Part shown: one piece after another, positions 2,030 through 42,067 of the stretch
Layout of the letters: every line of letters starts with the position of its first letter
Numbering within the stretch: the first letter of the stretch is position 1
DNA from: Lachnospiraceae bacterium
Lineage (GTDB): Bacteria; Bacillota; Clostridia; Lachnospirales; Lachnospiraceae
Assembly: GCA_017617395.1 (NCBI GenBank)
Contig: JAFZWG010000035.1
Span: 1 to 42,709, forward strand
Direction of reading: 5' to 3'
Length of the DNA stretch: 42,709 nt
Notes under the pieces: generated by a model
Seen by the model: only the letters and a program-made list of their open reading frames with translations
What the model was told of the DNA's origin: nothing
The model's database searches: none
Translations under genes and position numbers: made by a program

Positions 2030-2293
2030 TTAAGCCATTTTATTGACCGCACGCTGAAGTCTGGAAACTTTTCTTGCGGCATTATTCTTATGGAAAATGC
2101 CCTTAGCGGCAGCCTTGTCGATCGCAACGATCGCGGTCGTAAGATTGCTCTGAGCCAGAGTCTTGTCGCCGGCAGCCACGGCAGCGTCAACCTTCTTGGT
2201 CAGGGTCTTAATCTTCGACTTGATAATCTTGTTGCGCAAAGTCTTCGTCTCAATAACAAGAATTCTCTTCTTCGCAGATTTGATGTTTGCCAT
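2030..2293 (-). CDS. rpsT: 30S ribosomal protein S20
   Basis: This is a primary-binding small-subunit ribosomal protein that contacts 16S rRNA. The 87-residue product starts MANIKSAKKRILVIETKT, the classic S20 N-terminus. It is lysine-rich and helical throughout, ending in RLQRAVNKMA, and its length matches the family. The start at 2293 is chosen because AGGAGG lies about 7 nt upstream. A longer in-frame reading of 12 extra residues has no binding site. It has its own promoter (2377-2405) and terminator, so it is probably monocistronic although holA reads toward it. A GGAAAATGC word lies inside the gene (2092-2100). Confidence 0.97.
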   Translation of the reverse strand: MANIKSAKKRILVIETKTLRNKIIKSKIKTLTKKVDAAVAAGDKTLAQSNLTTAIVAIDKAAAKGIFHKNNAARKVSRLQRAVNKMA

Positions 2294-2376
2294 CTTCACA
2301 CCTCCTGTACGTAGTCTGGTTCTTCGCATGAATTGTGCACAGATCCGGACACGGACGCTCTGAACACACCGTGAGC

Positions 2377-2405
2377 ATTCTATTATACTTTTCTACGTCT
2401 GTCAA
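2377..2405 (-). promoter_or_regulatory. Sigma-A promoter of rpsT
   Basis: On the minus strand the -35 is TTGACA (2405-2400), the spacer is 17 bp and the -10 is TAGAAT (2382-2377). A TATAAT also occurs inside the spacer but at a non-canonical distance. The predicted leader is about 75 nt, long enough for S20 feedback control, which I infer only from general knowledge of ribosomal-protein genes. Confidence 0.8.
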
Positions 2406-2423
2406 TAGAAAAATTCAAAAAAG

Positions 2424-3404
2424 TCAACCATTCCCGCACTGTTTCATCAAAAACAGCTCCACAGCCATTCGATCGGGCATCGAACCGTTCTTCACCTTCG
2501 CCTCAAGCTCCGCTCCGAACGCTACCGCAGCGGTCACCGCATCGATGGACGCGGCCTTGCTGACCTTGAGGTATTTGCCGACCACATACGAGCTCATCTT
2601 GAGCTGCGAGCCGATGTCGACCGAGGACAAACCCTTTCGCTGCATCCGAAGGACAAGCGAGAATTGGTAAAAGCTGTTCGTAAGATTGTAAAGGATCAAC
2701 GCCGGCGGCGTCTGCGCCGTGAGAAGCTCCCGATATAACGACACCGCGGACTTGCGGTTCTTCGCAACGATCGCATCGATCATCTTAAACATCTGGCCCT
2801 GCGTGATCGCTGTCGTGAGCGTTAAGATATCCTCTCTTCTCACTTCGTCGCGCCCGTAGCAATACGCAGAGAGCTTGTCGACCTCGTTCGTGATCGCTGT
2901 GAGGTCACCGCCGGTGATGTCAACCAAAAGCCTTGCATCGGCGTCCGTAATATTGAGCTGCGCTCTCTTTAAAAGCGTCGCGGCAAATGTCACCGCATCG
3001 GTCTCGCGAAGCGGCTCAAACGTCGCAATATGACCATTTTCCTCGATGTATTTGTATAGGCGATTCCGCTTGTCGCACTCCTTCTCGGAGAAGATGAAAT
3101 ATGTCGTATCCGGAATCTCCTCGAGATGGTCCGCGAGCGCACACGAAGTCTTTAACCATCCGGTATCGCGGAGTATGATCACTCTTCGCTCCGCAAGAAA
3201 CGGCAGCGTCACCGCCGTCTCCAGAACCTCCATCGGGTCCGCCTTCGCACCCTCGAAGACAACGCGATTCATCGTGTCGTCCTCCGGCAGCAGAGCCTTC
3301 GAAATTCGGCTTAAGTAGACACGCCGAAGGTAGTCCTCCGTTCCGGTCAGAACGTAGAACCTTCGAAGATTCCCCGATTTGAGGTCATCCCGGATCGTGT
3401 TCAT
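2424..3404 (-). CDS. holA: DNA polymerase III delta subunit (clamp loader)
   Basis: The delta subunit opens the beta sliding clamp during clamp loading at the replication fork. The 326-residue product is the usual HolA size. Recognisable parts are an N-terminal FYVLTGTEDYLRRVYLSRI segment, a central ITGGDLTAITNEVDKLSAYC, typical of the AAA+-like region, and a helical C-terminal domain ending FLMKQCGNG. It starts only 4 nt after psd ends, so it is the last gene of the comEA-to-holA run. No terminator is visible before the rpsT promoter. holA directly upstream of rpsT is a common Firmicute arrangement. Confidence 0.93.
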   Translation of the reverse strand: MNTIRDDLKSGNLRRFYVLTGTEDYLRRVYLSRISKALLPEDDTMNRVVFEGAKADPMEVLETAVTLPFLAERRVIILRDTGWLKTSCALADHLEEIPDTTYFIFSEKECDKRNRLYKYIEENGHIATFEPLRETDAVTFAATLLKRAQLNITDADARLLVDITGGDLTAITNEVDKLSAYCYGRDEVRREDILTLTTAITQGQMFKMIDAIVAKNRKSAVSLYRELLTAQTPPALILYNLTNSFYQFSLVLRMQRKGLSSVDIGSQLKMSSYVVGKYLKVSKAASIDAVTAAVAFGAELEAKVKNGSMPDRMAVELFLMKQCGNG

Positions 3405-3408
3405 ACAC

Positions 3409-4359
3409 TTACTCCATGATAATATCGTCGCCCTCGACCGTAAACTGTGCTCTGCAGTCAGCGGGAAGCGTACCGATGCGCTGTCCCATCTTGACTACGG
3501 TCTCGTAACCGGCCTTCGTGTTCGCCAGAAGATCCGCACTCGGAACATAGCTTCCGCCGGGCACGAGTACAAGGATCGTCGAACCGCCGAACTCAAAATG
3601 GCCCTGCTCCTGTCCCTGCACAACATCCGCGGGACCGGGCTGATCGTTGACGATCTTGCCGACGCCGAGCGCTCCAACCTGCATCACACCGACATACTGC
3701 TTCGTGTTCTGATTGAAAATGAGGCAATAGCGGCGGGCATTTTCCCGATAGACGGCCGCATACTTGTGGATCATCGGATGCACCGTCATCAGCTTCCCGG
3801 GAATCACGCGATCCTCGGTCTTACCGCCTGTGATCGGATACATGTAATGATGGTAATCGTCGAGACTCAAGCGGAGCAAAAACAGGTAACCGCCGTTGAA
3901 GAAGCGGCTCTCGTCGGGGTCCGTCAACAGCTCACCGACCGTGTACGGAACGCCCTTGATGGCAAAGCTGTAATCCTCGGAAATCCGGTACACGCTCGCC
4001 TTGCAGTCGCACGGCGAAAGCAGGGCATCCTCCGAGACCGTGAACGGCCGGCTTTCCGGCTTGATCTCACGGCAGAAGAAATCCTGAAACGACGTGTACT
4101 TCTTCTTTTTGTACTCCGAGAGGCGGATTCCGTTCTTGCGAACAAAATGCGTGACGGAAAATGCAGAGAAGAACGACTTTAAAACAAGTCGCTCCAAGTT
4201 CGCAAACCACGCCGCGGAGACAAACTTCATAATCGCTCTTGTCGGAAGGTGCGCAAACATCTTCTCAATAAGCCGATTATTGGAAATCGGGATGGGCACT
4301 TCCCGGCCATCCCGATCTAAATAACAATACGATTCTGTGTAATAGTAATTGCGTGTCAT
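3409..4359 (-). CDS. psd: Phosphatidylserine decarboxylase proenzyme
   Basis: This pyruvoyl-dependent membrane enzyme converts phosphatidylserine to phosphatidylethanolamine. The product from ATG 4359 is 316 residues. The self-cleavage motif FGGST is at residues 257-261, so the pyruvoyl group should form on Ser260. A catalytic histidine lies in DYHHYMYP (about 168-175), and an Asp lies in the SPCDC segment near 118. I chose 4359 because its ATG overlaps the pssA stop (ATGA, 4 bp), implying translational coupling; 12 further upstream codons are open but lack a binding site. With pssA it forms a complete serine-to-PE branch from CDP-diacylglycerol. Two GGAAAATGC words lie in this gene (3737-3745, 4156-4164). 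Confidence 0.95.
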   Translation of the reverse strand: MTRNYYYTESYCYLDRDGREVPIPISNNRLIEKMFAHLPTRAIMKFVSAAWFANLERLVLKSFFSAFSVTHFVRKNGIRLSEYKKKKYTSFQDFFCREIKPESRPFTVSEDALLSPCDCKASVYRISEDYSFAIKGVPYTVGELLTDPDESRFFNGGYLFLLRLSLDDYHHYMYPITGGKTEDRVIPGKLMTVHPMIHKYAAVYRENARRYCLIFNQNTKQYVGVMQVGALGVGKIVNDQPGPADVVQGQEQGHFEFGGSTILVLVPGGSYVPSADLLANTKAGYETVVKMGQRIGTLPADCRAQFTVEGDDIIME

Positions 4360-5021
4360 ACAATCAAAACTCCTGCAAACAATGCGAGACTGCACACAAT
4401 CATGATGATCATGCCCTTCTTGTGCGGCTTGCGCACAGGGAAGTTGAAAATATACAAAAATGCCACGAACAGCATAAATGCGCTGAAGAACACCGGCAAT
4501 ACCGACGTAACACCGAAGATCAACCCGAGGATGCGGCCCGCAATGTACGCAACCGGAACACCGATTGCAGATGCCGTGATAGGCATTCCCTGATAGTACT
4601 CTCTGCGCTCATTTGTCTCCGCCTGGCGCTCCTCCTCGGTCACATTGAAGTACGCAAGACGAATCACGCCGCAGATGGTGAGAACAAGGCCCGCGATCAG
4701 ACCGAGAAAACGCATCTCCGATCCAAAATACAACATGTACGCAATCGTTGCGGGCGTAACGCCGAAACAAACGATGTCGCACAGCGAATCCAGCTGAATA
4801 CCGAACTTCTTCTCCTGCTCCGTACGCTTCACAAGCCGCGCCACCGTGCCGTCAAACATATCGCACAGACCCGCGATCATCAAAAAGAAGATGCTCCACC
4901 GAAAATCGGTCTGCTCCGTCGCATTCCACGCCAGAAACATGCTGACAAATGCAAATGTAACTCCGGTATACGTAAGAATCACGGAAGGATTATAAAAGCC
5001 GACAAAACGTTTTTCTTTCAT
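4356..5021 (-). CDS. pssA: CDP-diacylglycerol-serine O-phosphatidyltransferase
   Basis: This integral membrane enzyme makes phosphatidylserine from CDP-diacylglycerol and L-serine. The 221-residue product carries the CDP-alcohol phosphotransferase signature: DMFDGTVAR, then FG, then LDSLCD at about residues 55-85. The stretch between AR and G is 11 residues, a known spacing variant of this subfamily. Several hydrophobic segments follow (for example IAGLVLTICGVIRLAYF and FFSAFMLFVAFLYIF). The ribosome binding site AAGGGTG lies upstream of the ATG. It overlaps psd by 4 bp and lies 68 nt after comEC. A possible promoter of its own lies in that gap. Confidence 0.95.
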   Translation of the reverse strand: MKEKRFVGFYNPSVILTYTGVTFAFVSMFLAWNATEQTDFRWSIFFLMIAGLCDMFDGTVARLVKRTEQEKKFGIQLDSLCDIVCFGVTPATIAYMLYFGSEMRFLGLIAGLVLTICGVIRLAYFNVTEEERQAETNERREYYQGMPITASAIGVPVAYIAGRILGLIFGVTSVLPVFFSAFMLFVAFLYIFNFPVRKPHKKGMIIMIVCSLALFAGVLIV

Positions 5022-5057
5022 GAAACAACACCCTTAAACAGTAAAATTTCAAGAAGT

Positions 5058-5086
5058 ATCTTATCATCATTTGTCGCAAAAATCAA
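5058..5086 (-). promoter_or_regulatory. Possible promoter for pssA-psd-holA
   Basis: On the minus strand, TTGATT (5086-5081) and TAAGAT (5063-5058) are 17 bp apart in the A/T-rich comEC-pssA gap. Each hexamer matches consensus at four of six positions, so this is a modest candidate. Confidence 0.35.
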
Positions 5087-5089
5087 ACC

Positions 5090-7396
5090 CTATTTCCCCC
5101 TACTGTCAAAAAAGCAGGACACATTTACAGCACTTTTGCCAAGCTCGGTCGTCACCTGCCCGTCCTCAAGTGTCACGTACACCTCCGCGCCGGAACCCGC
5201 AAGTCCGGCCAGAACCTTCTCGGACGGATGCCCGTAGTTGTTCTTCCCGACCGACACGACCGCCACCTCGGGCGCCACACTCACGAAAAATTCATCCGAC
5301 AACGAATACACCGACCCGTGATGCGCAACTTTTAAATACTCGCACGCGCGAAGCAGCGCCGGGTACCGCTTCATGGTCTCCTCAAGAGTCGCCGCATCCG
5401 CGTCCGCAGCAAACACAGCCTCACCGTAGCGGTCCTCCATGTGAAGGATCAGATTCGTTTCGTTTCGGTCCTCCTCAAGGATTCCGTTCGCAGGCCACAA
5501 CACATCAAACCGCAGTTCGCCAGAGAAAAACCCGCACGGAACCGTAAGCGCCTCTCCCGCTCTCACTGTCCGCAGAGGCTCTCTGCCCGCCTCCTCCAGT
5601 TTCATTGCGAACTCACTGTCCGCTTCGTACGGCGATATGTATACAATTGTTTTCTTCCACTCCTTCGTCAAAAGCTCCGCAATTCCGATGCAATGGTCGG
5701 CATCCGTGTGCGTCACAAACACGACATCCGGTGCATTGTACCCATGGTATGTTAGAAAAGGCTTCAGCACCTTCTCCCCGACATCCTTGCGGGACGTGCT
5801 CCCGCAATCGATCACGATGCAGCACTCGCCCTTCAGGATCACGCAGCAATCCCCCTGACCGACCGAGAGATTGACAATGCGGCACTCTGTCGAATGAATC
5901 GGAAGAAAGCATAAAAAGCCAAGCGCCATCAACGCATACGCAGCCTTGCTCCTTCGATACGCCAGATGCGCTGTCGCCACCGCAACCACTATATAGAATC
6001 CGAACCGAAGCATTGTCGGCTTACCGAGCACCAGTACTGTACCGGGCAGTTTTTGACACCATTCAGTCAACCGATTGATAAATGAAAGGCCGAAATGCGC
6101 CGGTCCCGCTGCGAAACGCCCGACCCGGCAGCTCACGGCGGCAAACGAAACCCCTGCAACAATCGAGAGAAAGATGATCGTAATCAGCGGCACGATAATC
6201 GCGTTGATGATAAACCCGACCGTCGTAATCCGATAAAAAATGCTGACTTGAACCGGCAGCAAAAGAAATTGAAGCATCAACGAAAACCGAAGCATCTCGG
6301 CAAGGAAGTTTTCTTTCGCTGCCTTCCCGACCACCTTTTTCTTCGGATCTTTTGCTAACCGACATAATAGCCGGTTAAAATCCTCTCTTCCCTCCGCAAT
6401 CACCAGAATTGCGAACGCGCACGCGAAGGACAACACAAAGCCGGTCTGAAATACGACCGAAGGACTGTTTAGCATCACAAGTGCCATCAAGAAAGCAACC
6501 GAGGTTCGTCGGTCCGAAGTCCTTCGAAAACATAGTCCGAGACTAACGAACAAAAAGTATAAAACAGCGCGGACACACGACACCGGAAATCCTGCAATCA
6601 CGCCGTACAGCAAAAGCAAAACCGATGCCGCCAGGCGCGCATATGCCTTTCGAAGAAACCGTCCGAACAACCAGACGGCCGCTCCGCCAAGAGCAGCAAC
6701 GTGCATTCCGCTTACGGCGAGCACATGCGCCACCCCGAGGTCCCGATACCTGACATACACATCGTCGTCGATCTCATCGCGGACACCGCACAGAATTCCT
6801 GCAGCGATACCGCTTGTCTCCTCAGGAAATACCTTTCCCAGTGTGTCAACCATTTTTCGCCGCAGTTTCGCTATTGCAGTTTTGATTCCTCCACGATACT
6901 CGCCCGTATGCTCGTAACTTTCCGCAGAGAGCAACACACCAATTCCCCGGTAATATGCGCTCGCGTCCCACTCGCCTTCATTTGAAGGGCCTTCAATCTC
7001 CGTAAAAGGACCTTTCAGTTTAACATACTCGCCATATTCCGGCGGAGCTTCCTTGCAATACACAAGCACCGCAAAGTCTGAGGCCTCGTCAACAGGTTTG
7101 GCGGCGAACCATTTTTCGCGCACTTCGGTGACAACCGCTGAAACCACGGCTTCACTCGTGATGCGGGCTTTCCATTCATTTTCGCGTACCAAAAACAGAC
7201 GACCGTACATTACGCCCGTTACAAAGCAAAACAAGATGATGAAACTTTTCTTTGGGAGTCGTCGCAGGACAGCCGAAACGGCAAGAAGTAACATGATAAT
7301 AAAGCCGATGACCATCGCCGCTACGGGCGACGTCGTCATCGCACAGATGATGCCTGCGACAACACAGAGGGACGCCCAAAACAGCGGGCGTTTCAC
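5090..7396 (-). CDS. comEC: ComEC/Rec2 competence DNA channel
   Basis: ComEC forms the inner-membrane channel that takes up single-stranded DNA in naturally competent bacteria. The 768-residue product has an N-terminal hydrophobic block and a soluble OB-like region (about 60-170). The ComEC competence core with multiple membrane helices includes LAVSGMHVAALGG. The C-terminal metallo-beta-lactamase domain begins at LSVGQGDCCVIL and has the metal motif HTDADH near residue 563 and VAHHGS. The start is GTG, preceded by AAAGGA. The full three-domain architecture suggests a functional protein. It follows the GerMN lipoprotein by 22 nt and shares a strand with comEA, with a two-component system between them. 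In some Clostridia com genes persist without shown transformability. Confidence 0.95.
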   Translation of the reverse strand: MKRPLFWASLCVVAGIICAMTTSPVAAMVIGFIIMLLLAVSAVLRRLPKKSFIILFCFVTGVMYGRLFLVRENEWKARITSEAVVSAVVTEVREKWFAAKPVDEASDFAVLVYCKEAPPEYGEYVKLKGPFTEIEGPSNEGEWDASAYYRGIGVLLSAESYEHTGEYRGGIKTAIAKLRRKMVDTLGKVFPEETSGIAAGILCGVRDEIDDDVYVRYRDLGVAHVLAVSGMHVAALGGAAVWLFGRFLRKAYARLAASVLLLLYGVIAGFPVSCVRAVLYFLFVSLGLCFRRTSDRRTSVAFLMALVMLNSPSVVFQTGFVLSFACAFAILVIAEGREDFNRLLCRLAKDPKKKVVGKAAKENFLAEMLRFSLMLQFLLLPVQVSIFYRITTVGFIINAIIVPLITIIFLSIVAGVSFAAVSCRVGRFAAGPAHFGLSFINRLTEWCQKLPGTVLVLGKPTMLRFGFYIVVAVATAHLAYRRSKAAYALMALGFLCFLPIHSTECRIVNLSVGQGDCCVILKGECCIVIDCGSTSRKDVGEKVLKPFLTYHGYNAPDVVFVTHTDADHCIGIAELLTKEWKKTIVYISPYEADSEFAMKLEEAGREPLRTVRAGEALTVPCGFFSGELRFDVLWPANGILEEDRNETNLILHMEDRYGEAVFAADADAATLEETMKRYPALLRACEYLKVAHHGSVYSLSDEFFVSVAPEVAVVSVGKNNYGHPSEKVLAGLAGSGAEVYVTLEDGQVTTELGKSAVNVSCFFDSRGK

Positions 7397-7418
7397 TCAG
7401 GATATCCTTTCTTTTTGA

Positions 7419-8309
7419 CTACGGTTCGTTCTCCTGCCTTCGCAGAATCCCCGGCACTTCGTATGTGCCGTAGGTTGTAAGACGCTTCCCGTCTACAGAG
7501 ATTACGACTCCGTCAATATAGTCGAGATTTACGATCAACGTATCGGCAATCGATTGAATAACAAGATTGGCAGGAACGTTCTTCTTATCACTGACAAACT
7601 CTTTAGAAAGATTCACACTGCAGATTCCGTCTCTGGTGTTGACCGAGAGAATCTTCGTCTTCGCAGGGATACACGAAATAGCGCCTTCCTCGGACGCTAT
7701 CGGGCCGGCAATCAGAATCTCCAAAAGGTATTGTTCCCGACGCTTTATATCATCCAGAACAACAGGGCGCTCCGCCTCAACAAGCTCCGTTCCGCTTTCG
7801 CTTAAGAAGTAAAGCTTCAAAAGAAACGGCTCCGACGGTGTGTCGAGCGTCGTCACGAACTGCTCTTTGCGCATAACCTCCTCCGTCGGGGGAAGATCTG
7901 CACCTTCCACGCGGAACACTACGCCGTCCACGGCTTCGGGTCCACAAAGTGTCCGAACGATGGCCGCACGAATCAATACCTCGCGAAGCACATCATCCAC
8001 GCGGTACGACTGGAAGGTAACGGTCACGATACCGTCGGCAAATGTCATATCCTTATACATAACAGAGTCCGAAATCGGCGCAATGCGGTCGCTTCCGGAG
8101 ACCTGAAGTTGTCCAATCAGCTCGCGGATCAATGAATCGGTCGTCACGGCAGACGGCGAATAGCCGACTTCCGTAAGACCTTTGCCGTTCGTACTCAGAT
8201 AATAGACGGTAAACGGATGCTCCTCCGACGGTTTGCTGGTCCGGCTGCAGGCACACAAACCAAGGCTCGTCAGCAAGAGGATTCCGATGATGATCACATA
8301 CTTTCTCAT
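7419..8309 (-). CDS. GerMN-domain lipoprotein
   Basis: This is a predicted cell-surface lipoprotein. The 296-residue product has a signal peptide with lipobox LCAC (Cys21). Two GerMN-type repeats follow, as in Bacillus GerM: one at about 32-140 (FTVYYLSTNG ... VDGVVFRVEG) and one at about 165-280 (LLKLYFLSES ... IDGVVISVDG). GerMN domains occur in sporulation/germination proteins and in actinobacterial LpqB. Its ATG overlaps the kinase stop by 4 bp (ATGA), so kinase and lipoprotein are translationally coupled. That context favours a sensory or envelope-stress partner over a germination role. At 296 residues it lacks room for the beta-propeller of LpqB. Confidence 0.85.
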   Translation of the reverse strand: MRKYVIIIGILLLTSLGLCACSRTSKPSEEHPFTVYYLSTNGKGLTEVGYSPSAVTTDSLIRELIGQLQVSGSDRIAPISDSVMYKDMTFADGIVTVTFQSYRVDDVLREVLIRAAIVRTLCGPEAVDGVVFRVEGADLPPTEEVMRKEQFVTTLDTPSEPFLLKLYFLSESGTELVEAERPVVLDDIKRREQYLLEILIAGPIASEEGAISCIPAKTKILSVNTRDGICSVNLSKEFVSDKKNVPANLVIQSIADTLIVNLDYIDGVVISVDGKRLTTYGTYEVPGILRRQENEP

Positions 8310-9739: not shown

Positions 9740-10424
9740 GATCGGAAAAATAGTACCCTACTCCCCACTTGGTATGAACAAACACCGGCTCGCTGGCATC
9801 GGGCTCGATCTTCTCGCGAAGACGACGAACATGAACGTCTACGGTACGCGCATCCTTTAAGTAGTCGTAACCCCAGACAATGTTCATCAGGTTCTCGCGG
9901 GAATAAATTTTGTTCGGGTGCGTGAGCAACAGCTCCAACACATCATATTCTTTCACGGTCAGGCGGATTTCGTTTCCGTCTACAAAGACCTGGCGGCTCT
10001 CCGGAAGAAGGCGAAGACCCTTGAAGCGGATTTCCTTCGAGGAAACCGGCTCGCCGGTCATGTCGCTTCGGCGGAAAATGGCCTTCATGCGGGCCTTGAC
10101 CTCCAGAATATTGAACGGTTTGGTAATGTAGTCGTCGGCGCCGTATTCCAGGCCGAGAATCTTGTCGGAATCATCGCCCTTCGCCGTGAGCATGATGATC
10201 GGGACCTGCGACTTCTCGCGGATCTTGCGGCACACTTCGTAACCGCTCAACTTCGGAAGCATGACATCCAGAAGGATCAGGTCGTACGACCCGCTGTTCA
10301 CCTTCTCGACCGCCTCTTCTCCGTCATATGCGCAGTCCACCACCATGGAATCGGACTCCAGGCTGAATTTGATTCCCTTTGCGATCAATTTCTCGTCGTC
10401 AACGACAAGCACACGTTTACCCAT
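9732..10424 (-). CDS. OmpR/PhoB-family response regulator
   Basis: This DNA-binding regulator is phosphorylated by the adjacent kinase. The 230-residue product has a receiver domain with VVDDE (acidic pocket), phospho-acceptor Asp53 in LILLDVMLP, and conserved Thr and Lys in MLTAKG and TKPF. A winged-helix effector domain follows, including YLKDARTVDVHVRRLREKI and ending GVGYYF. It resembles WalR/MtrA-type regulators. GGGGGG upstream of the ATG acts as the binding site. It lies 52 nt after comEA and overlaps the kinase by 8 bp. No YycH/YycI homologues follow, so I do not call it walR. Confidence 0.95.
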   Translation of the reverse strand: MGKRVLVVDDEKLIAKGIKFSLESDSMVVDCAYDGEEAVEKVNSGSYDLILLDVMLPKLSGYEVCRKIREKSQVPIIMLTAKGDDSDKILGLEYGADDYITKPFNILEVKARMKAIFRRSDMTGEPVSSKEIRFKGLRLLPESRQVFVDGNEIRLTVKEYDVLELLLTHPNKIYSRENLMNIVWGYDYLKDARTVDVHVRRLREKIEPDASEPVFVHTKWGVGYYFSDHE

Positions 10425-10476
10425 AGTACCCCCCGATATTGTCGGACCGAAGGGTATTTCCGATCACGACATGGTT

Positions 10477-11130
10477 TTATTTGACACAGATGTCCCCGCG
10501 GATCTTCTCGTATAATGCGGTCTTGATTCCGGGAACGTTCATGATGTCTTCCGCAGTTTGAAACAGGCCGTTCTCCTTCCGGTACGCGACAATGTCCTCG
10601 GCTTTGCGCTCACCGATTCCGCTGAGCGTCATAAGCGATGCGACATCCGCGGTGTTGATATTCACGGGCCCCGACGTCTCCGTCACCGGTTCCGTGTACA
10701 TCACAGCGGTAACAACCTCGTCCTCACGCGGGACATAGATCTTCATCCCGTCCGTCACAGGCAGCGCAAGGTTTAAGTACCGCGTCGCAGCCTCGTCGGT
10801 AAATCCGCCCGCAGCCGCAACGGCATCCGCAACGCGCGAGCCGCGCGCTAGGAAGAAGACTCCTTCTTCGACAACTTGTCCACACACGTGGACACAAAGG
10901 GCAGGATCTTCAGAATCCACAGAAACGCCCGAAACGCCAGCTTGATCAACCGATACAGCACCTTCCCCAGATACATGGGAATCGACCAGACTGTCTTTTG
11001 CTTCGATTGTTTCGCTTCGGATCGCACGTCCCTCTCCCCTTCCGTACAACATCAGATAAAGGCTTCCCGCCAGCACGACTGCCGCAACCGGCACTGCCAC
11101 ACGAAGCCATTTAAACGTAAGATGCGTCAT
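10477..11130 (-). CDS. comEA: ComEA-type DNA receptor
   Basis: ComEA is a membrane-anchored receptor that binds incoming double-stranded DNA and hands it to ComEC. The 217-residue product has an N-terminal TM anchor (about 8-26) and an SLBB-type domain (about 77-130, CVHVCGQVVEEGVF ... YVPREDE). The C-terminal helix-hairpin-helix pair (about 155-217) includes VNINTADVASLMTLSGIGER and then NVPGI. The start at 11130 is preferred because GGGAG lies 6 nt upstream; a GTG seven codons earlier has no binding site. A promoter with TTGTAA/TATAAT drives it. It is the first gene of the run that includes the two-component system and comEC. Confidence 0.93.
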   Translation of the reverse strand: MTHLTFKWLRVAVPVAAVVLAGSLYLMLYGRGEGRAIRSETIEAKDSLVDSHVSGEGAVSVDQAGVSGVSVDSEDPALCVHVCGQVVEEGVFFLARGSRVADAVAAAGGFTDEAATRYLNLALPVTDGMKIYVPREDEVVTAVMYTEPVTETSGPVNINTADVASLMTLSGIGERKAEDIVAYRKENGLFQTAEDIMNVPGIKTALYEKIRGDICVK

Positions 11131-11169
11131 ACCGTCTCCCTTCCGACGCACCCTTCACACAGTACTGTA

Positions 11170-11233: not shown

Positions 11234-11287
11234 CTTGTTTTTGTACAGTTTTGAAAACTTTCGGAGCATTTTCCGAAGCGACAGATG

Positions 11288-17006: not shown

Positions 17007-17231
17007 CTATTTGTTGTCTTTATACCGTTTCCAGCCGATCACCATGAGCACGACTCCGACGATGATGAGAATAAATCCGTAATCGTAGAAAAACGAGATC
17101 ATGCGGATCTTAAACGGAACTCTCCCGGAAAATGCAGCCACAATAATGTCCTGCCAATCCAGCGTTGTTGTCCTCGCCCAGATGGTTCCGATCACACCGA
17201 CCAAAGTTACGATAAAACCGATAGCAAACAT
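17007..17231 (-). CDS. Small two-helix membrane protein, unknown
   Basis: I do not recognise this protein. The 74-residue product has a first hydrophobic helix (about 1-19, MFAIGFIVTLVGVIGTIWA), a polar loop with WQDIIVAAFSGRVPFKIR, and a second helix (about 50-66, GFILIIVGVVLMVIGW), ending in basic RYKDNK. GGGAGG lies 7 nt before the ATG, which supports it being real. It is last in the iorA-led minus-strand run, 60 nt after the PPTase gene. Its stop abuts a REP-like palindrome. A GGAAAATGC word lies inside it (17127-17135). Confidence 0.7.
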   Translation of the reverse strand: MFAIGFIVTLVGVIGTIWARTTTLDWQDIIVAAFSGRVPFKIRMISFFYDYGFILIIVGVVLMVIGWKRYKDNK

Positions 17232-27847: not shown

Positions 27848-27916
27848 GTGTCAAATTGCAAAAATCGTTCGCTAAGCAGCATTTTCCCATAAATATACCG
27901 TAAACGCAAGAATCAT

Positions 27917-28000: not shown

Positions 28001-29395
28001 ATGAAACTCTGGGGAGGACGCTTTACCAAAGAGGAAAATGCATTGGTGAACGAATTTAACGCTTCGCTTCGCTTCGACCGCCGATTCTTCCGTCAGGACA
28101 TCCGCGGCAGCATCGCGCACGCAACGATGCTCGGCCGTCAGGGAATCCTCACGAAGGACGAGAGCGAACGCATTATCGCGGAGCTTAAGAAGATCAACAA
28201 GGAGCTCGAGCAGGGCAAGCTCGTCTTCGACGAGGAGGCCGAGGATATCCACAGCTTCATCGAGGCGACTCTCACGGAGCGCATCGGGGACGCCGGCAAG
28301 AAGCTTCACACCGGCCGCTCCAGAAACGACCAGGTGGCTCTCGACATGAAGCTCTACGTCCGCGACGAGATCGACGAGACGATGCTTCGCGTCACCGCTC
28401 TTCTCAAGGTGATTCATCGCCTGATGAAGGAGCACAAGGACACGATCATGCCCGGCTTTACGCATCTGCAGAAGGCGCAGCCGGTCACTCTGGCGCACCA
28501 TCTCGGCGCCTATATGGAGATGTTTAAGCGTGACTACACGCGCCTTGACGACGTCCGCAAGCGCATGAACTACTGCCCTCTCGGAGCTGGCGCTCTGGCC
28601 GGAACGACGTATGATCTCGACCGTGCATTTACCGCGAAATACCTGAAGTTTGACGGTCCGACCGCGAACAGCATGGACTCCGTTTCCGACCGCGACTACG
28701 TGATCGAGTACCTTGATGCGTGCGCGATCATCATGATGCACTTAAGCCGCTTCTGCGAGGAGTACATCGTGTGGAACACCGACGAGTACCGCTTCATCGC
28801 GGTTGATGACGCGTACTCGACCGGCAGCTCGATCATGCCGCAGAAGAAAAATCCCGACATCGCCGAGCTTGTCCGAGGCAAGACCGGACGGATCTACGGG
28901 GACCTCACCGCCATCCTGACCGCGTTGAAGGGGATCCCACTGGCCTACAACAAGGACATGCAGGAGGACAAGGAGCTCACGTTCGACGCGATTGACACCG
29001 TCAAGGGCTGCCTTACTCTCTTTACCGACATGCTCTCCACGACCCGCTTTAAGAAGGAAACGATGGAGCGCAGCGCCGCCGGCGGTTTCACGAATGCTAC
29101 CGACGCAGCCGACTACCTCGTAAAGCACGGCGTTCCGTTCCGCGATGCACACGGCATCATCGGTCGTCTCGTGCTCGCCTGTGAGGAGCGAAAATGCGCG
29201 CTCGACACGCTTCCGCTCGACGCATACAAGGAGATCTGCCCTGTCTTCGAGGAGGACATCTATGAGGCCATCAGCCTTGCGACGTGCATCTCCAAACGAA
29301 ACACGACAGGCGCTCCCGGCCCCGATGCGATGGCCGCGGAGATCGCTGCGGATGCCGCGTTCTTAAAGAAGATCCACGCGGATGTCGAATACTAA
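28001..29395 (+). CDS. argH: Argininosuccinate lyase
   Basis: It cleaves argininosuccinate to arginine and fumarate, the last step of arginine synthesis. The 464-residue product starts MKLWGGRFTKEENALVNEFN. It has the substrate-binding TGRSRNDQVALD and the fumarase-superfamily signature GSSIMPQKKNPD with the catalytic Ser loop. The start at 28001 follows GGGAGG; 28 upstream in-frame codons run through the hairpin and promoter and are rejected. argG lies 12 kb away, so arginine genes form three separate units in this window. A GGAAAATGC word occurs near the start (28033-28041). Confidence 0.98.
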   Translation: MKLWGGRFTKEENALVNEFNASLRFDRRFFRQDIRGSIAHATMLGRQGILTKDESERIIAELKKINKELEQGKLVFDEEAEDIHSFIEATLTERIGDAGKKLHTGRSRNDQVALDMKLYVRDEIDETMLRVTALLKVIHRLMKEHKDTIMPGFTHLQKAQPVTLAHHLGAYMEMFKRDYTRLDDVRKRMNYCPLGAGALAGTTYDLDRAFTAKYLKFDGPTANSMDSVSDRDYVIEYLDACAIIMMHLSRFCEEYIVWNTDEYRFIAVDDAYSTGSSIMPQKKNPDIAELVRGKTGRIYGDLTAILTALKGIPLAYNKDMQEDKELTFDAIDTVKGCLTLFTDMLSTTRFKKETMERSAAGGFTNATDAADYLVKHGVPFRDAHGIIGRLVLACEERKCALDTLPLDAYKEICPVFEEDIYEAISLATCISKRNTTGAPGPDAMAAEIAADAAFLKKIHADVEY

Positions 29396-31233: not shown

Positions 31234-31246
31234 GGATGCCTCCGTA

Positions 31247-32986: not shown

Positions 32987-33058
32987 AGTAGCCTCCGCAG
33001 TCGCACCGGCGGGATTTCGGGGTGCATTTTCCGCACCGCTTCCGCCTCGTGCCGATTC

Positions 33059-33087: not shown

Positions 33088-33100
33088 GCACAAATAACTG

Positions 33101-33129: not shown

Positions 33130-33169
33130 GTTTTCGTATGTGCGTATACCGTTGACATGATATCGAAAA

Positions 33170-33212
33170 CCGTGTCACACGGCTTTTCATGCGACGCAAA
33201 TGTGGGGCGTCG
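33170..33212 (+). promoter_or_regulatory. Two hairpins in the activase leader
   Basis: CCGTG-TCA-CACGG (33170-33182) is flanked by AAAA and CTTTT, a miniature terminator-like fold. CGACGC (33192-33197) pairs with GCGTCG (33207-33212). They lie between the promoter and the ribosome binding site GAAGAGG. No riboswitch class is recognised. Confidence 0.35.
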
Positions 33213-33246
33213 AGGCAGTGATGAATAAGACGAGAAGAGGTATCCT

Positions 33247-36200: not shown

Positions 36201-37488
36201 GCACGTCACCGCGTCGGTGCATTCGTCGGCGCACAACCGCGTCATTTTCACCGAGGAGATGCGCAAAAACTACACGCTCCTCGCTCCGCAGATGTCACCG
36301 ATCCATTTCCGCGTGCTCGAGCCAGCGCTGCGCGCACACGGCTATCAGATTGAGGTTCTCGACTCGCAGGACAACCGCGACGCCATCGATGTCGGTCTTC
36401 AGTACGTCAACAACGACGCCTGCTACCCTTCGCTGATCGTTGTCGGCCAGATCATGAGTGCCCTGCAGTCCGGCCGCTACGACTTAAACCGTGTCGCCGT
36501 CATGATCTCTCAGACCGGCGGCGGATGCCGTGCGACCAACTATATCGGTTTCATCCGCCGCGCACTGCAGAAGGCCGGCATGGGCCATATTCCGGTCGTC
36601 TCCTTAAGCACCAGCGGAATCGAGAAGAACCCCGGTCTTGAATACACACCGAGACTGATCATGAGCGCCCTCGAGGCTCTCATCTACGGCGATATCTTCA
36701 TGCGCGTATTGTACCGCACGCGCCCGTACGAGAAGGTTCCGGGCTCCGCGAATGCCCTGTACGAAAAATGGAACGCCATCGTCTCGAAGGACGTTGAGAA
36801 AGGCCGCCTTCACAAATTCAAGAAGAACTGCCGCGACATCATCCGCGAGTTCGACGAGCTGCCATTGATCGAAGGTCTCGTAAAGCCCCGCGTCGGCGTC
36901 GTCGGCGAGATCCTGGTCAAGTTCCTTCCGACCGCCAACAACCACCTTGTGGAACTGCTGGAGCAGGAAGGCGCCGAGGCGGTATGTCCGGATCTTCTGG
37001 ACTTCTTCCTCTACTGCTGCTACGACTGCAACTTCAAGGCCGATTTCCTCGGCAAGAGCAAGAAGGACGCCCGCTATAACAACCTGGCGATCCGCCTCAT
37101 CGAGTGGTTCCGAAAGCCCGCGAAGAAAGCATTCCGCGCAAGCAAGCGCTTCGATGCACCCTCGACGATCCGCGAGCTCGCCGAGAAGGCCGCTCAGATT
37201 GTTTCGGTCGGCAATATGACCGGTGAGGGATGGTTCTTAACGGCGGAGATGCTCGAGCTCATTGAGGAAAATGCACCCAACATCGTGTGCACGCAGCCGT
37301 TCGCCTGCCTTCCGAACCATATCGTCGGCAAGGGCGTCATCAAGGAGCTTCGGCTCCGTCATCCGGAGTCCAACATTGTCGCCGTCGACTACGATCCCGG
37401 CGCAAGCGAAGTAAATCAGTTAAACCGTATCAAGCTCATGCTTTCCACCGCGCAGAAGCGTCTCGCGGCCAAAGAGCAGAAACAATAA
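33247..37488 (+). CDS. Giant CoA-dehydratase-type activase with two ASKHA ATPase domains and DUF2229-like region
   Basis: The 1413-residue product belongs to the 2-hydroxyacyl-CoA dehydratase activator (HgdC/BadF-BadG) superfamily, ATP-driven reductases with a [4Fe-4S] cluster at the dimer interface. ATPase domain 1 (about 5-255) has [12 protein letters not shown], and Cys125 and Cys164 in the positions of the HgdC cluster ligands. Domain 2 (about 319-575) has [12 protein letters not shown], and Cys444 and Cys483. A linker motif CKGCTNAC (604-611) plus Cys630 looks like a further Fe-S site. The rest is DUF2229-like and HgdB-related, rich in conserved cysteines (for example [12 protein letters not shown] and [11 protein letters not shown]). 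Such single-chain proteins are common in Clostridia; their substrate is not established. No acyl-CoA dehydratase subunits lie nearby. Confidence 0.9.
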
Positions 37489-37509
37489 TGATGTAACGGG
37501 GGTGTTACG

Positions 37510-38958
37510 ATGAAATCATTGCGTGCGATACTTATTCTCATTCTCATGACGGTCTTCGCGACCGCATCGGCAAGCGCCGATGACGCCGCGCCCGTGGAAA
37601 TCCGGACGCCGGAGGAGCTCATCGCGATTGCCGACAATCCGGAAGGAAACTACGTGTTGATGAACGACCTCGACCTCACGGGTTACGACTGGCCTTCGTT
37701 CACCTTCAAGGGAACGTTCGACGGCAACGGTCACACGATCATCAACATTCACTGGACGAAGGTGTCCGACGAGACGCAGGTCACGTACGACGGAAACCGC
37801 AAGACGTACGATACGCATTTTGCGGGTTTCTTTGCAATCCTCGACCACGCGACCGTGAAAAATGTCCGTCTCCCAGGCGTGGATCTCTTTGTTGAAAACT
37901 ACGAGGGCGACTGCTTCCTCGGCGGTATCGCAGGCTACGCCACCGAGAGCACGATCGAGAACTGCGAAGTCTCCGGAACGATCCGCCTCGATGTCACCGG
38001 CAAGATGTTCGGTGTCGGCGGAATCATCGGCTACGGAAACGGAGTCATTAAGAACTGCAAAGCTGAGGTCACTCTCGTAAACATCGACCTGGATGCAAAG
38101 AACCGCGACGAAGAATTCCTCGGCGGTGTCTGCGCCGCGGGCTACCCCGACATCGACGGCTGCGAGATTCAGATCTCCGGCTTCCTCTCCGATCACGGCT
38201 ATGTGCACAGCGGCGGTCTCGTCGGAATGTACATCGTCTACCCGAAGGCGTTCAAGCGTGACGGCTACATCAAGAACAACAAGCTCACGGGCTTCATCAC
38301 ATTTTTCGAAGACAACACGAATCGCCGCGCCTACTGCAAGGAAAGCTACGGCGAGGTCATGGACTGGTATTTTACGACCGCCGGTGACAGCAACAAGTAT
38401 TCCTTCAAACGCGACGAGCGCAAGAAGTACGATGTCAATCTCCTGCCCCACGGCGAATGCAAGAACCCTGATTTTGAGGAAACCAAGGTTGAAGCGACCT
38501 GCCAGGATCCCGGTTACACGCTTCATACCTGCAAGACCTGCGGCTACACCGAGAAGGACAACTATGTGCTGTCCGCGCATCATTTTCCGGAAACCTACGA
38601 GACGATCACCGAATCTACGTTGACGACGCAGGGTGTCGGCGAATACACGTGCTCCGAGTGCGGCGCGAAGATCCGCAAGGCTCTTCCGACCCTGACGCCT
38701 GTTCCGACCGCAACACCGGTTCCGACGACCGAGCCGACCGAGGCTCCGAGCAAGGCGACCACGGATACCATCAACGAGTCCAAATCCGGCTCCGGCGTGT
38801 GGCCGTATCTTCTCATTTTTTTCATCGGTATTCCGCTGGGTGTCATTGCCGCTCTTTTGTACAGAAGACATCGCATCAAAAAGCTTAAGCGCCTTCGCAA
38901 GGCCCGCCGCGCACAGGCCGCAAGAGCTGCCAGGCTGCACAAGGAAAGCGACGATTGA
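37510..38958 (+). CDS. Secreted, membrane-anchored GLUG-like surface protein
   Basis: I recognise the architecture but not a named protein. The 482-residue product has a signal peptide (about 1-24, cut near ASA-DD). A beta-helix region follows (about 30-290): PEELIAIADNPEGNYVLMND, FKGTFDGNGHTI, and GGIAGYATESTIENCEVSG, in the style of GLUG/adhesin repeats. Next are two cysteine-pair motifs, CKTCGYTE and CSECGAK (about 337-395), as in many Lachnospiraceae surface proteins. A Thr/Pro-rich spacer (LTPVPTATPVPTTEPTEAP), a TM helix (about 434-455) and a very basic tail of about 30 residues complete it. There is no LPXTG or NPQTN motif, and the long tail argues against sortase anchoring. It starts 21 nt after the activase stop and may share its transcript. 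Confidence 0.8.
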   Translation: MKSLRAILILILMTVFATASASADDAAPVEIRTPEELIAIADNPEGNYVLMNDLDLTGYDWPSFTFKGTFDGNGHTIINIHWTKVSDETQVTYDGNRKTYDTHFAGFFAILDHATVKNVRLPGVDLFVENYEGDCFLGGIAGYATESTIENCEVSGTIRLDVTGKMFGVGGIIGYGNGVIKNCKAEVTLVNIDLDAKNRDEEFLGGVCAAGYPDIDGCEIQISGFLSDHGYVHSGGLVGMYIVYPKAFKRDGYIKNNKLTGFITFFEDNTNRRAYCKESYGEVMDWYFTTAGDSNKYSFKRDERKKYDVNLLPHGECKNPDFEETKVEATCQDPGYTLHTCKTCGYTEKDNYVLSAHHFPETYETITESTLTTQGVGEYTCSECGAKIRKALPTLTPVPTATPVPTTEPTEAPSKATTDTINESKSGSGVWPYLLIFFIGIPLGVIAALLYRRHRIKKLKRLRKARRAQAARAARLHKESDD

Positions 38959-38978
38959 TCACTAAAACTTCCGAATAC

Positions 38979-39017
38979 AAAAAGCCATGCAGGAGCAATC
39001 CCGCATGGCTTTGTTTC
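38979..39017 (+). terminator. Terminator after the surface-protein gene
   Basis: AAAGCCATGC pairs with GCATGGCTTT around a loop of about 12 nt, followed by GTTTC. It closes the activase/surface-protein unit before the convergent phosphatase-like gene. Confidence 0.8.
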
Positions 39018-39033
39018 ATTTTCGAACAAATCA

Positions 39034-40113
39034 TTATTGCAGCAGTCCGTAGTACCAACCCGTCACACCGTCCCGCTTGACGATCGCGCCTCGCGACGTC
39101 TCCAACACGACGGAAACCTCATCGCCGTACGTCACCTTGAGCTGGTAGTCGGTGAAATCCTCCGTATAGCAGCTTCCGTCCGCGCGTCTGCTTAAGAACA
39201 CCTTCGGAATCCAGAAGTTCTGCTCCGTCCTCTCCTGGCGGCAATAGCACATATCGCCTGAGGTCTTCAGGACCTTCACACGGTTGTCCGGCTCCTGGAT
39301 CAGGTGCCGCTCAAGTCCCGCATTCTGGCTGTTCTGCGCAATCCGCTTCGGAAAATTATCCACGCTCACAAACGAAAAATCCTCGGACCCGCCGGCAGGA
39401 ATGATCAACGCGTTCAGCTGACCGTCCCGCAGAGCTGTCATACCGCCGTCCACGCTGATGATCTTGCGGTTTTTCAGGATGATCGGGTTCGCGTTTCGCT
39501 TGTACTCCGGGTAACGCTGGTTCGGATAATGCCCGACGACAACGTAGCGGTCAAACGAGAAGCCCTTGCTTAAGAACCCCTCCGCCTTCACGACATCCGC
39601 GGGCGTCATCTCCTCGAGCTCGCCCGGGAGGATCTGCGCATGCGCAAAGAGATACTTCGGTGTTTCGATGACATGCGGAAGGTCCCACATAAAGCCGATC
39701 TCTTCCTGGTAGCACTCGCGAAGCGCCAGCTTGATCGGGTGCATATTCGTATCCGGCGTGAGCGGAATTCCCTGCTCCACGCACATATCGCGCACGAGCG
39801 AAGGATTTCGCAAAACGTACGCCAACAACTCTTCGTTTCGATCCGGCCGGTAGATCTCCCGGCACACCGGATCGCGGTCACCGGTGACAAAGAAGACGCG
39901 CCGGCTCCGGCTTAGCTCCATCACATAGCGGAGCGTCCGAAGACTCTCCGGCCCGCGCTCCACGAGGTTTCCAAGGATAATCAGATAGTCCTCGTGCGTA
40001 TATGCGGCCTTCTCCAGCAATCTGCGCAGAGCGTCGTAATTGCCGAATATGTCACTGACCACGAGAATCCTTCGATTCTCGTCAAGATTCGGTCTGAAAA
40101 TTCTGATCGCCAT
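39034..40113 (-). CDS. PPP/calcineurin-like phosphatase homologue with degenerate metal site
   Basis: The 359-residue product has the frame of a PPP/bis-tetraphosphatase-type metallophosphoesterase: VVSDIFGNYDALRRLL for motif GDxHGN, ILGNLVERGPES for GDxVDRGPxS, VTGDRD for GNH(E/D), FAHAQ (His158), VVGHYP (His195) and ISVDGG. Several catalytic or metal positions are changed: His to Phe23, Asp to Asn49, Asp to Glu52, Asn to Asp79 and His to Arg80. It may be inactive or use other chemistry, acting as a binding or scaffold protein. The reading frame is intact and the rest of the fold conserved, so this is not simple decay. It begins 2 nt after the sortase gene stop and is probably co-translated with it. 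Confidence 0.8.
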   Translation of the reverse strand: MAIRIFRPNLDENRRILVVSDIFGNYDALRRLLEKAAYTHEDYLIILGNLVERGPESLRTLRYVMELSRSRRVFFVTGDRDPVCREIYRPDRNEELLAYVLRNPSLVRDMCVEQGIPLTPDTNMHPIKLALRECYQEEIGFMWDLPHVIETPKYLFAHAQILPGELEEMTPADVVKAEGFLSKGFSFDRYVVVGHYPNQRYPEYKRNANPIILKNRKIISVDGGMTALRDGQLNALIIPAGGSEDFSFVSVDNFPKRIAQNSQNAGLERHLIQEPDNRVKVLKTSGDMCYCRQERTEQNFWIPKVFLSRRADGSCYTEDFTDYQLKVTYGDEVSVVLETSRGAIVKRDGVTGWYYGLLQ

Positions 40114-40115
40114 AA

Positions 40116-41129
40116 TTATTTAATCCGTTTCGCAACGACAATCAAGCGTCCGTCATCGTCGTACGACATGTGGTAACACGTCGATAACGTGATCAGCTCG
40201 TCGCCCCACTCCGCAGTTGCATCGGTGGCGTAGCGCGACATTCTCTTGATCTGCTTCACGTAGTACTCAAATTCCGACTTCTCTAAAATTCCGCCGTAGA
40301 CATGATAGCGGAACACGTTCTCCGAAGCCGGGTAGATGGCCGTTAAGCAGACCGCGATGATCTCGTAGACACCCTCGCTGACAGCCGTGTTAAAATAAAT
40401 GTATTTGTGTTGCTCGTAATATTCCTTTTTGAGGTAATTCGGCAGAGTTCCGAACGCACTTCCGTCATACATGTTGTGCGCGTAAATGATATAATTTCTG
40501 CTCTCGCCGAGGCGCGTCTGGCTGTCCATAAACGGCGTTCCGCGCGTCTCATAGCTTCCGCTGAAATTGCGGTAGAGATAGTAGTCGTACTCCTCCGGCG
40601 TAAACATGACGGGGAGGCTTACTTTCGTATCCGGAATCTGAATATAGCCGAAGCAGTCGGGGTTGACGCTCGTCAGATACCGGTATTGTTCCTTCCAGCG
40701 GTCCGAAACCGAGGTGCGGTAACGGTTTTTGTTCGCCTCGATCGTGTACTCTCCCTCGTCGGGAAAGATCACTTCGGGATCGCGCTCGACGACTTCCTCC
40801 ACCGGGTCATCGAGACCGACAACGGCGATACCGCCCTCCATCATTCGAGAAATCTCTTCCTGCGACTTCGTGTACTGATATCCCTTGTAGTAGTACCAGC
40901 CGATCTCCAGCACACAGACAACGAGCACTGCGGAGGAAATCAGCAAAATGAGATTCATGATACCGTTTGAACTCTTGCGCGACACCGTGTTGCGGCGGGA
41001 CTTCTCCTCCGACTCCAAAAGAACCGCCGCCCGCTTCGCATCGCGCTCCGCGATCCGCGCTTTTCTGGCGTCGGCTTTATTCTTTCTTCGCTCAGACAGG
41101 CGTGTCAATAAACCGCCGGACTCACTCAT
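40116..41129 (-). CDS. srtB: Class B sortase
   Basis: This is a membrane-anchored cysteine transpeptidase that attaches surface proteins to the cell wall. The 337-residue product has a highly charged cytoplasmic N-terminus (1-55, many Arg/Lys/Glu), one TM helix (about 57-78) and the extracellular catalytic domain. The catalytic residues are visible: His218 in YAHNMYDGSAFG, Cys318 in TLSTCYH, and Arg328 in DGRLIVVAKR. The YAHNM...FG pattern and helical insert suit class B. Start 41129 follows GAGGGAG; 22 upstream in-frame codons lie in the leader. No substrate with a sorting signal is in the window. It is followed by the phosphatase-like gene. Confidence 0.93.
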   Translation of the reverse strand: MSESGGLLTRLSERRKNKADARKARIAERDAKRAAVLLESEEKSRRNTVSRKSSNGIMNLILLISSAVLVVCVLEIGWYYYKGYQYTKSQEEISRMMEGGIAVVGLDDPVEEVVERDPEVIFPDEGEYTIEANKNRYRTSVSDRWKEQYRYLTSVNPDCFGYIQIPDTKVSLPVMFTPEEYDYYLYRNFSGSYETRGTPFMDSQTRLGESRNYIIYAHNMYDGSAFGTLPNYLKKEYYEQHKYIYFNTAVSEGVYEIIAVCLTAIYPASENVFRYHVYGGILEKSEFEYYVKQIKRMSRYATDATAEWGDELITLSTCYHMSYDDDGRLIVVAKRIK

Positions 41130-41200
41130 AAACTCTCCCTCAACAATCTGCGCACGGGCAAAGGCAACACTTCCCCCGCGGCACTTTTTCAACATTCCCT

Positions 41201-41209
41201 ATGATACCA
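41201..41209 (-). promoter_or_regulatory. Extended -10 promoter of the sortase operon
   Basis: On the minus strand, TGG-TATCAT (41209-41201) is an extended -10. The -35 region is poor. The predicted start is near 41194, giving a leader of about 65 nt. Confidence 0.45.
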
Positions 41210-41301
41210 CAGAAACGTCGTGATATCCATACACATTTGCATTTTTCACGCAAAAATCACCGCTTTTGGGAAATTTTTGTATAGTATTTTCACTGTCTGT
41301 A

Positions 41302-41310
41302 TGCTACAAT
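41302..41310 (+). promoter_or_regulatory. Extended -10 promoter of the IscU-like/GGGtGRT pair
   Basis: TGC-TACAAT (41302-41310) is an extended -10 in an A/T-rich stretch, with no clear -35 at 17 bp. The leader to the ATG at 41357 is about 40 nt and has AAAGGAG. Confidence 0.5.
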
Positions 41311-41356
41311 ACGGTAGGTGTGATTTGCACAACAAATGAAAGGAGTTTTTCATCGT

Positions 41357-42067
41357 ATGATTTATTCTCATGAAGTAGAAAACATGTGCACCGTTGCACA
41401 GGGTGTACACCACGGTTGCGCTCCGATCCCGGAAGAAGCAAAGTGGGTTCAGGCGAAGGAAGTTAAGGATATCTCCGGCTTCACCCACGGTGTAGGCTGG
41501 TGTGCTCCTCAGCAGGGCGCTTGCAAGCTTTCCCTCAACATCAAGGAAGGTATCATTCAGGAAGCATTGGTTGAGACGATCGGCTGCTCCGGTATGACGC
41601 ACTCCGCAGCTATGGCATCCGAGATTCTTCCCGGTCTGACCGTACTCGAGGCTCTCAATACCGACCTCGTTTGCGACGCCATCAACACCGCTATGCGCGA
41701 GCTGTTCCTGCAGATCGTATACGGACGTTCCCAGAGTGCATTTTCCGAGGACGGTCTCCCGGTAGGCGCAGGTCTTGAGGACCTCGGCAAGGGTCTCCGC
41801 TCCCAGGTTGGTACGATGTACGGTACCCTCAAGAAGGGTCCTCGCTATCTTGAGATGGCTGAGGGTTATGTTACCGGTATCGCTCTCGACGCTGACAACC
41901 AGATCATCGGCTACAAGTTCGTTTCCCTCGGCAAGATGACCGACTTCATCAAGAAGGGTGACGATCCCAACACCGCTTACGCAAAGGCTTGCGGTCAGTA
42001 CGGCCGTGTTGCGGATGCTGTGAAGATCATCGATCCGAGAACCGACAAAGAGTTAGAGTTGAACTAG
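41357..42067 (+). CDS. IscU/NifU-like iron-sulfur scaffold-type protein
   Basis: The 236-residue product is an atypical IscU/NifU-like protein. Cysteines are at 11, 21, 49, 56, 77, 106 and 212. The stretch ETIGCSGMTHSAAMASEIL, then GLTVLEAL, matches the IscU segment around its second ligand Cys. GWCAPQQGAC takes the first-ligand position. It is longer than IscU (about 130 residues) and carries a family-specific C-terminal half with GYVTGIALDADNQIIGYKFV. I start it at 41357 (11 nt after AAAGGAG); an ATG seven codons earlier contains that site. Codon use is biased to GCT, GGT and GTT, which suggests high expression. It is 12 nt before a GGGtGRT-family gene. No iscS is nearby, so a role in general Fe-S assembly is uncertain. 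Confidence 0.8.
   Translation: MIYSHEVENMCTVAQGVHHGCAPIPEEAKWVQAKEVKDISGFTHGVGWCAPQQGACKLSLNIKEGIIQEALVETIGCSGMTHSAAMASEILPGLTVLEALNTDLVCDAINTAMRELFLQIVYGRSQSAFSEDGLPVGAGLEDLGKGLRSQVGTMYGTLKKGPRYLEMAEGYVTGIALDADNQIIGYKFVSLGKMTDFIKKGDDPNTAYAKACGQYGRVADAVKIIDPRTDKELELN

Follow-up and report, generated by a model that had tools for sequence, protein, structure and literature searches.

Several kinds of short word are known to recur across whole bacterial genomes. HIP1 of cyanobacteria is a highly iterated octameric palindrome found in coding and non-coding DNA, and the known Chi words are 5-8 nt long and little degenerate. Dialect-forming words of genome-wide occurrence have so far been known from the self-DNA uptake words of two other bacterial families. 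The DNA uptake sequence (DUS) of the Neisseriaceae is described as present in hundreds to thousands of copies (PMC3630211); the uptake signal sequence (USS) of Haemophilus influenzae, as lying to 65% in open reading frames (ORFs), with no orientation bias and an excess in non-coding DNA; and published uptake words, as forming dialects that track phylogeny and are explained by uptake-driven molecular drive. A screen of Veillonella parvula is reported to have given no word of at least 10 bp with 100 copies (PMC5397411). Inverted terminator pairs are common with both DUS and USS, but are not defining. Here we describe a word, GGAAAATGC, that is strongly over-represented in a 42.7-kb window (the whole stretch of DNA analysed, on contig JAFZWG010000035.1) of a Lachnospiraceae bacterium and in the genome to which the window belongs. 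Among the papers listed in the literature searched, which mostly lay outside subscription journals, there was no report of GGAAAATGC in bacteria or of an uptake word in Lachnospiraceae.

Genome-wide excess and layout of the word

The assembly that holds the window comprises 2,341,923 bases in 97 contigs and is 85.2% complete. It contains 593 copies of GGAAAATGC (277 and 316 on the two strands) against 7 of the reversed word, a ratio that is flattered because the reversed word contains TAA, which is rare in coding DNA. In a sequence sample of this genome consisting of the window and 20 further stretches (392,333 bases, 16.8% of the assembly), 99 copies were counted where an order-4 Markov model predicted 20.2. 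When synonymous codons were shuffled gene by gene over 317 home-made calls, so that proteins and codon counts were preserved, 7.7 copies were expected within genes and 64 were observed, an approximately 8-fold excess. All six reading frames exceeded the shuffle mean, antisense frame 2 remaining within the shuffle range (5 copies; mean 2.7, maximum 6). The degenerate form CGNMAAATG occurred 266 times against 40.0 by codon shuffle, and three control words came to 0.6-0.8 of expectation. Codon use and amino-acid content therefore do not explain the excess, and an artefact of either kind was ruled out. The original prediction, made from the window's letters, had named beforehand the tests that could refute it (a Markov expectation, a codon-preserving expectation and amino-acid pairs), and the word withstood all of them. 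The excess is real and strong.

The original prediction had taken the 9-mer to be the word; the 9-mer is indeed enriched, but the true word is longer and more degenerate (10-13 bp). Flank logos, one-mismatch counts and a fitted 13.1-bit matrix gave the full word as approximately tCG[GA][AC]AAATgCa, which is non-palindromic, with information beyond it near zero save at the adjacent bases. The G and the AAAT are nearly fixed; the pair of bases that separates them is loose, as are the final bases. One-base variants within genes were enriched at the loose positions but not at the fixed ones (48 against 65.9). Sites scoring at least 10 bits with the matrix numbered 900 in the 392-kb sample (2.29/kb, against 0.24/kb for column-permuted matrices), a density of about one per 430 bp that corresponds to several thousand sites across the genome.

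Most exact copies in the sample are genic (64 of 99), but 35 are intergenic although the gene calls cover 90.7% of the DNA, so that non-coding DNA carries an excess. The form CGNMAAAT peaks within the first 25 bp 3' of stop codons (33 sites in 4,392 bp). A transcription signal was ruled out, since sites occur in both orientations and both before and after genes. With the G-rich strand presumed to be the leading strand, exact copies split 57 to 42, and 1,137 of 2,420 matrix sites (0.470) over eight genomes lay on the G-rich strand. Strong terminus-directed polarity of the kind shown by FtsK orienting polar sequences (KOPS) or SpoIIIE recognition sequences (SRS) was thus not found in these counts; a polar signal was ruled out, in agreement with the earlier argument that an even strand split speaks against KOPS. 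Nor did the fitted matrix describe a palindrome of the HIP1 or restriction-site type. In the genome of the window, counts of matrix sites per 5 kb had a variance/mean ratio of 0.45 (lower-tail p 1.2e-5), compared with 1.26-2.36 for six matched control matrices, and in five of seven other genomes the ratio was 0.52-0.70, with p<0.05 in G019 only. Site density fell slightly with GC content over 5-kb windows (-0.17); within genes, the density of CGNMAAATG was 1.02/kb in the highest-GC sixth and 0.40/kb in the lowest, unsteady between, which gives no more than a hint that foreign-looking DNA is depleted of the word.

Within the window itself there are 10 exact copies of GGAAAATGC, five per strand, placed as the original prediction had placed them; 100 dinucleotide shuffles gave a mean of 0.55 and a maximum of 3. 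For the core AAAATGC, the earlier count of about 27 was nearly right (28), whereas the expectation of about 3 was too low (7.2). Four copies lie inside genes: at 2092..2100 (plus strand), antisense to a predicted gene on the minus strand (2030-2299); at 3737..3745 (minus, sense) and 4156..4164 (plus, antisense), both in the phosphatidylserine decarboxylase gene (3409-4395, minus); and at 41738..41746 (minus), antisense to a predicted gene on the plus strand (41384-42067). Two further sense copies are close to gene ends, the 5' end in the argininosuccinate lyase gene (28033..28041, plus) and the 3' end in the BcrAD/DUF2229 gene (37266..37274, plus). Gene calls upheld the three copies that had been named as intergenic, all on the minus strand, namely 11266..11274 in the gap between comEA and a class-III aminotransferase gene, 27879..27887 upstream of the argininosuccinate lyase gene and 33024..33032 between the genes for a DHODB Fe-S protein and for BcrAD/DUF2229. 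The remaining copy (17127..17135, plus) falls in a weak 225-nt ORF call (17007-17231) and is possibly intergenic. The flanks vary, as had been claimed, except for C at -1 (67%) and A at +1 (49%), and a mobile repeat was ruled out as the source of the copies on that ground.

Dialects and loss among relatives

The family sample spanned more than 300 genera, with 299 family genomes counted and 22 genomes in the genus of the window organism. Outside the genus, the exact word CGGAAAATGC was strongly raised in few of the 299: G118 (188 copies), G253 (112), G194 (103 in a 5.7-Mb genome, reversed control 17) and G134 (102). The word of G253, a 98% complete genome, was also enriched by codon shuffle (31 against 4.4). 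Counts against the reversed word can mislead, as in G233, where they gave 66 against 2 but codon shuffling gave 3 against 3.0 in 35 kb; because that control is unfair, we do not count G134 and G074 as motif-bearing, their excess having been seen in such counts alone. G036, with 40 kb of usable DNA, was left out of later comparisons. In G052, a member of another family, GAAGAACTG was raised (26 against 6.1), which may be codon-driven.

Within the genus, CGNMAAATGC was most frequent in G007 (1,161 copies), and the genome of the window had 1,070. Two genomes had no excess, G006 (117 against 118) and G017 (130 against 122), and codon shuffling likewise found the word absent from them (29 against 22.5 and 4 against 6.1). 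They are sisters in the tree (support 0.999), so that a single loss of the word accounts for both. Longer repeated words were seen in these two genomes instead, for example around GAGGCAATGG in G006, and were largely gone after repeat masking.

Other spellings prevailed in particular lineages. Whole-genome counts of AAATGYSAC against the reversed control were 543/68 in G001, 502/69 in G012 and 340/46 in G021, weaker in G008 (218/76), G016 (229/105) and G018 (198/99), and near the control in the genome of the window (112/84). CGGAAAATGA numbered 405 copies in G019, 320 in G014, 319 in G010, 245 in the genome of the window, 64 in G007 and 5 in G006, and CGGKCAATGY numbered 450 in G118, which belongs to another genus, compared with 11-61 in 25 other genomes. 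Codon shuffling supported CGGCAAATGC in G007 (22 against 1.1), AAATGYSAC in G001 (25 against 3.8) and CGGNCAATG in G118 (49 against 5.4). G001 and G012 form a sister pair (support 0.974); G007 stands beside the genome of the window in the tree, yet prefers CGGCAAATGC. For the most part the dialects track phylogeny, and G..AAT(G) is common to them. In aligned genes around comEC, 96 of 217 sites of the window genome were retained in clade-A relatives, compared with 37 of 159 control sites (pooled, non-independent observations); sites are conserved yet turn over. As to motif fitting, matrices of 20-22 bp degenerated into A/T-rich noise for a number of genomes, and at 15 bp the fit was poor for G014 and recovered no word for G006, G017 or G253, the last despite its enrichment by codon shuffle.

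Competence and pilus genes

Domain matches bore out the earlier statement that comEA and comEC lie in the window. The comEC-type gene for a DNA-uptake channel (5090..7396, minus) matches Competence PF03772, Lactamase_B and DUF4131, and the comEA-type gene for a DNA-binding protein (10477..11151, minus) matches SLBB and HHH_3; both are candidate uptake parts. We found comEC in 20 of 22 genus genomes and in 32 of the 35 genomes searched. It diverges fast, at 28-75% identity to the window copy within the genus, compared with 72-99% for argB and argJ. The comEC of the window genome has atypical codon use, and comEC matches in two pieces were seen at G016:C57:53707-54488, with in-frame stops, and at G015:C63.

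Congeners carry a type IV pilus operon with PilB, PilT, PilC, two prepilins, PilD, PilM, a PilN-like gene and further prepilin-like genes, names that were assigned from order and resemblance. The pilus PilT was found in 18 of 22 genus genomes, and the four without a match, the genome of the window among them, are 79-85% complete. One large protein of the operon (~600-690 aa; L149 15885-17717 and its counterparts) is 25-42% identical where PilB is at least 79% identical, and next to PilB in G011 sits a pair of adjacent PilT-like genes (G011:C126:28839-31091), which share 72% and 96% identity with the PilT of G002.

A second PilT, ~50% identical to the pilus PilT, is encoded on other contigs and stands alone in the six loci read. 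In the genome of the window, this PilT-like ATPase gene (L168 4236-5294, G000:C97) is kept across the genus with neighbours that differ by clade. Of the 20 word-bearing congeners, 19 gave a match to the second PilT, the exception being G015 (80% complete); it was found in neither of the motif-lost genomes, G006 and G017. Matches of the second type at 1e-70, pilus PilTs included, occurred in 177 of the 299 family genomes. Because a single loss is involved and this PilT is widespread in the family, the association is a lead rather than a proof. Presence of comEC, T2SSF or addB did not discriminate, within the genus, genomes with the word from those lacking it. Complete AddB matches to a Gram-positive family model scored ~465-559 bits in the clade of the window genome and ~666-735 bits in its sister clade.

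Candidate roles of the word

The word resembles DUS in copy number, in being a short, continuous and non-palindromic word, in having dialects that track phylogeny around a conserved inner part, and in occupying permissive places in the core genome. It differs from DUS in its spelling, in a host that is Gram-positive by family, in its greater degeneracy at some positions and in that inverted terminator pairs are not clearly enriched; the receptor in Neisseria is ComP. With the USS of Pasteurellaceae it shares the genic proportion (65% in H. influenzae versus 64/99), the lack of orientation bias, the non-coding excess and a roughly even distribution, but its spelling is unrelated, no AT-rich flanking tracts were seen and close-pair terminators are not clearly enriched. 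Like Chi, the site of AddAB/RecBCD, it is frequent, non-palindromic and species-variable, and addB is present; unlike Chi, it has no strand polarity, is longer and degenerate, and was lost where addB was kept. Like HIP1, it recurs many times both inside and between genes, but it is not palindromic. Among the marks of DUS and USS, genome-wide enrichment, a non-palindromic and unoriented word, a non-coding excess and dialects with a shared inner part were all observed, whereas the replication-biased orientation of Chi was not (57 vs 42; 0.470 over the eight genomes). The word may thus work like an uptake sequence, by analogy in copy number, genic share, absence of polarity and dialects; membership in the DUS/USS class is not established by this, as the uptake and receptor sides are argued from analogy.

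Its number, its degenerate, non-palindromic form of 10-13 bp, its lack of polarity, intergenic excess, dialects and evenness in this genome make an uptake-type word the best fit, and we rank this reading ahead of a site for a chromosome-organising protein, some other drive and a Chi-like site, in that order. We put at about one in two the probability that this Gram-positive family has a word of the uptake type and that molecular drive, powered by transformation, has spread it. Of the candidates raised by the original prediction, namely an uptake word, a Chi-like signal and a nucleoid-protein or methyltransferase site, the uptake word has gained and Chi has been weakened. In this reading, DNA with the word would be bound at the cell surface by a receptor of the competence apparatus, for which ComEA and a minor pilin of the type IV pilus are candidates. 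Fragments so marked would be favoured in import through ComEC and in recombination. The word would thereby accumulate wherever the genome tolerates it, and dialects would form between species as the specificity of the receptor drifts. Competence of the cell, a receptor that reads the word and drive as its origin are all three things that we infer.

Several observations weigh against an uptake-type word. DNA uptake by Gram-positive bacteria is, to our knowledge, not known to be sequence-specific. The assembly of the window (85% complete) yielded no type IV pilus PilT, strong PilC or pilus operon, its matches being limited to the second PilT and Tad-type genes, and motif-bearing G253 gave no PilT or PilB match and only weak Tad-like T2SSF matches. 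Conversely, G006 and G017 keep comEC, comEA and the pilus, so that loss of the word was not loss of the apparatus. The genomes with the closest second PilTs outside the genus, G165 (23 copies) and G161 (28), had no excess of CGGAAAATGC, a result for that spelling only. Evenness is clear only in the genome of the window, and G002 (1.11) and G014 (1.02) are not even. For inverted terminator-like pairs there was no clear enrichment, with 18.3 convergent pairs expected at 4-30 bp and 22 seen, and terminator hairpins were dropped as an explanation of the word for that reason. Finally, among 1,640 pairs of sites 20-400 bp apart in eight genomes, same-strand pairs were rarer than opposite-strand pairs (725 vs 915), opposite-strand neighbours being near random expectation while same-strand sites avoid each other. 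This rarity is not predicted by a fragment-uptake model, and may reflect a reader that works in one direction or, alternatively, selection that disfavours short direct repeats.

A one-directional reader is what a Chi-like word would have, read by AddAB in the repair of double-strand breaks or in recombination of incoming linear DNA, and the same-strand avoidance with near-random opposite-strand spacing is as such a reader would predict. Chi also differs between species, and addB was found in all 28 genomes searched, so that gene content does not decide a Chi role. The presence of addB in motif-lost G006 and G017 speaks against one, as does the lack of polarity both of exact copies and of matrix sites; the same-strand avoidance could also be mere selection against deletion-prone short direct repeats. 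We consider a Chi-like word quite improbable. It is unlikely that the word serves a protein that organises the chromosome, associates with the nucleoid or otherwise binds DNA, under selection for regular coverage of the chromosome, though such a role would suit a degenerate word like that of a transcription factor, spaced as densely and evenly as in the genome of the window, partly conserved in place and present on both strands without polarity, and it needs no pilus and so fits G253. Against it, no candidate protein was found, none having been sought by family, and closely related species differ in its spelling while one sister pair lacks the word altogether, which would be unusual for a housekeeping site.

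The dialects and the one clean loss resemble a changing specificity, which could equally belong to some other drive or reader, linked to recombination or to mobile elements, that makes or favours the word; nothing specific points there, and we hold it to be rather unlikely. That codon use, amino-acid content or mutation that depends on context produced the word as a side effect is highly improbable and already largely refuted. A-rich intergenic DNA does inflate raw counts, and G233 seemed enriched until its codons were shuffled, but the codon shuffles, the column-permuted matrices, the excess in high-GC genes and the absence of the word from G006 and G017 all argue the other way, as does the evenness in the genome of the window, because mutational bias should not yield even sites.

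Going beyond an uptake-type word as such, we suggest tentatively, at somewhat less than even odds, that it may be a third independently evolved code for self-DNA recognition and the first in a Gram-positive family, with shifts in spelling between close species acting as barriers to gene exchange, and that the code is perhaps tied to the stand-alone PilT as a retraction motor. If so, this third case, in a dominant gut family and with several dialects and one loss within a single genus, would provide a new system for studying how such codes originate and shift; gut bacteria that are hard to transform would perhaps become transformable with correctly marked DNA, and a guess from sequence at which species exchange genes would become possible. 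Even if another protein is the reader, a genus-specific, dialect-forming and evenly spaced genome-wide word is unusual.

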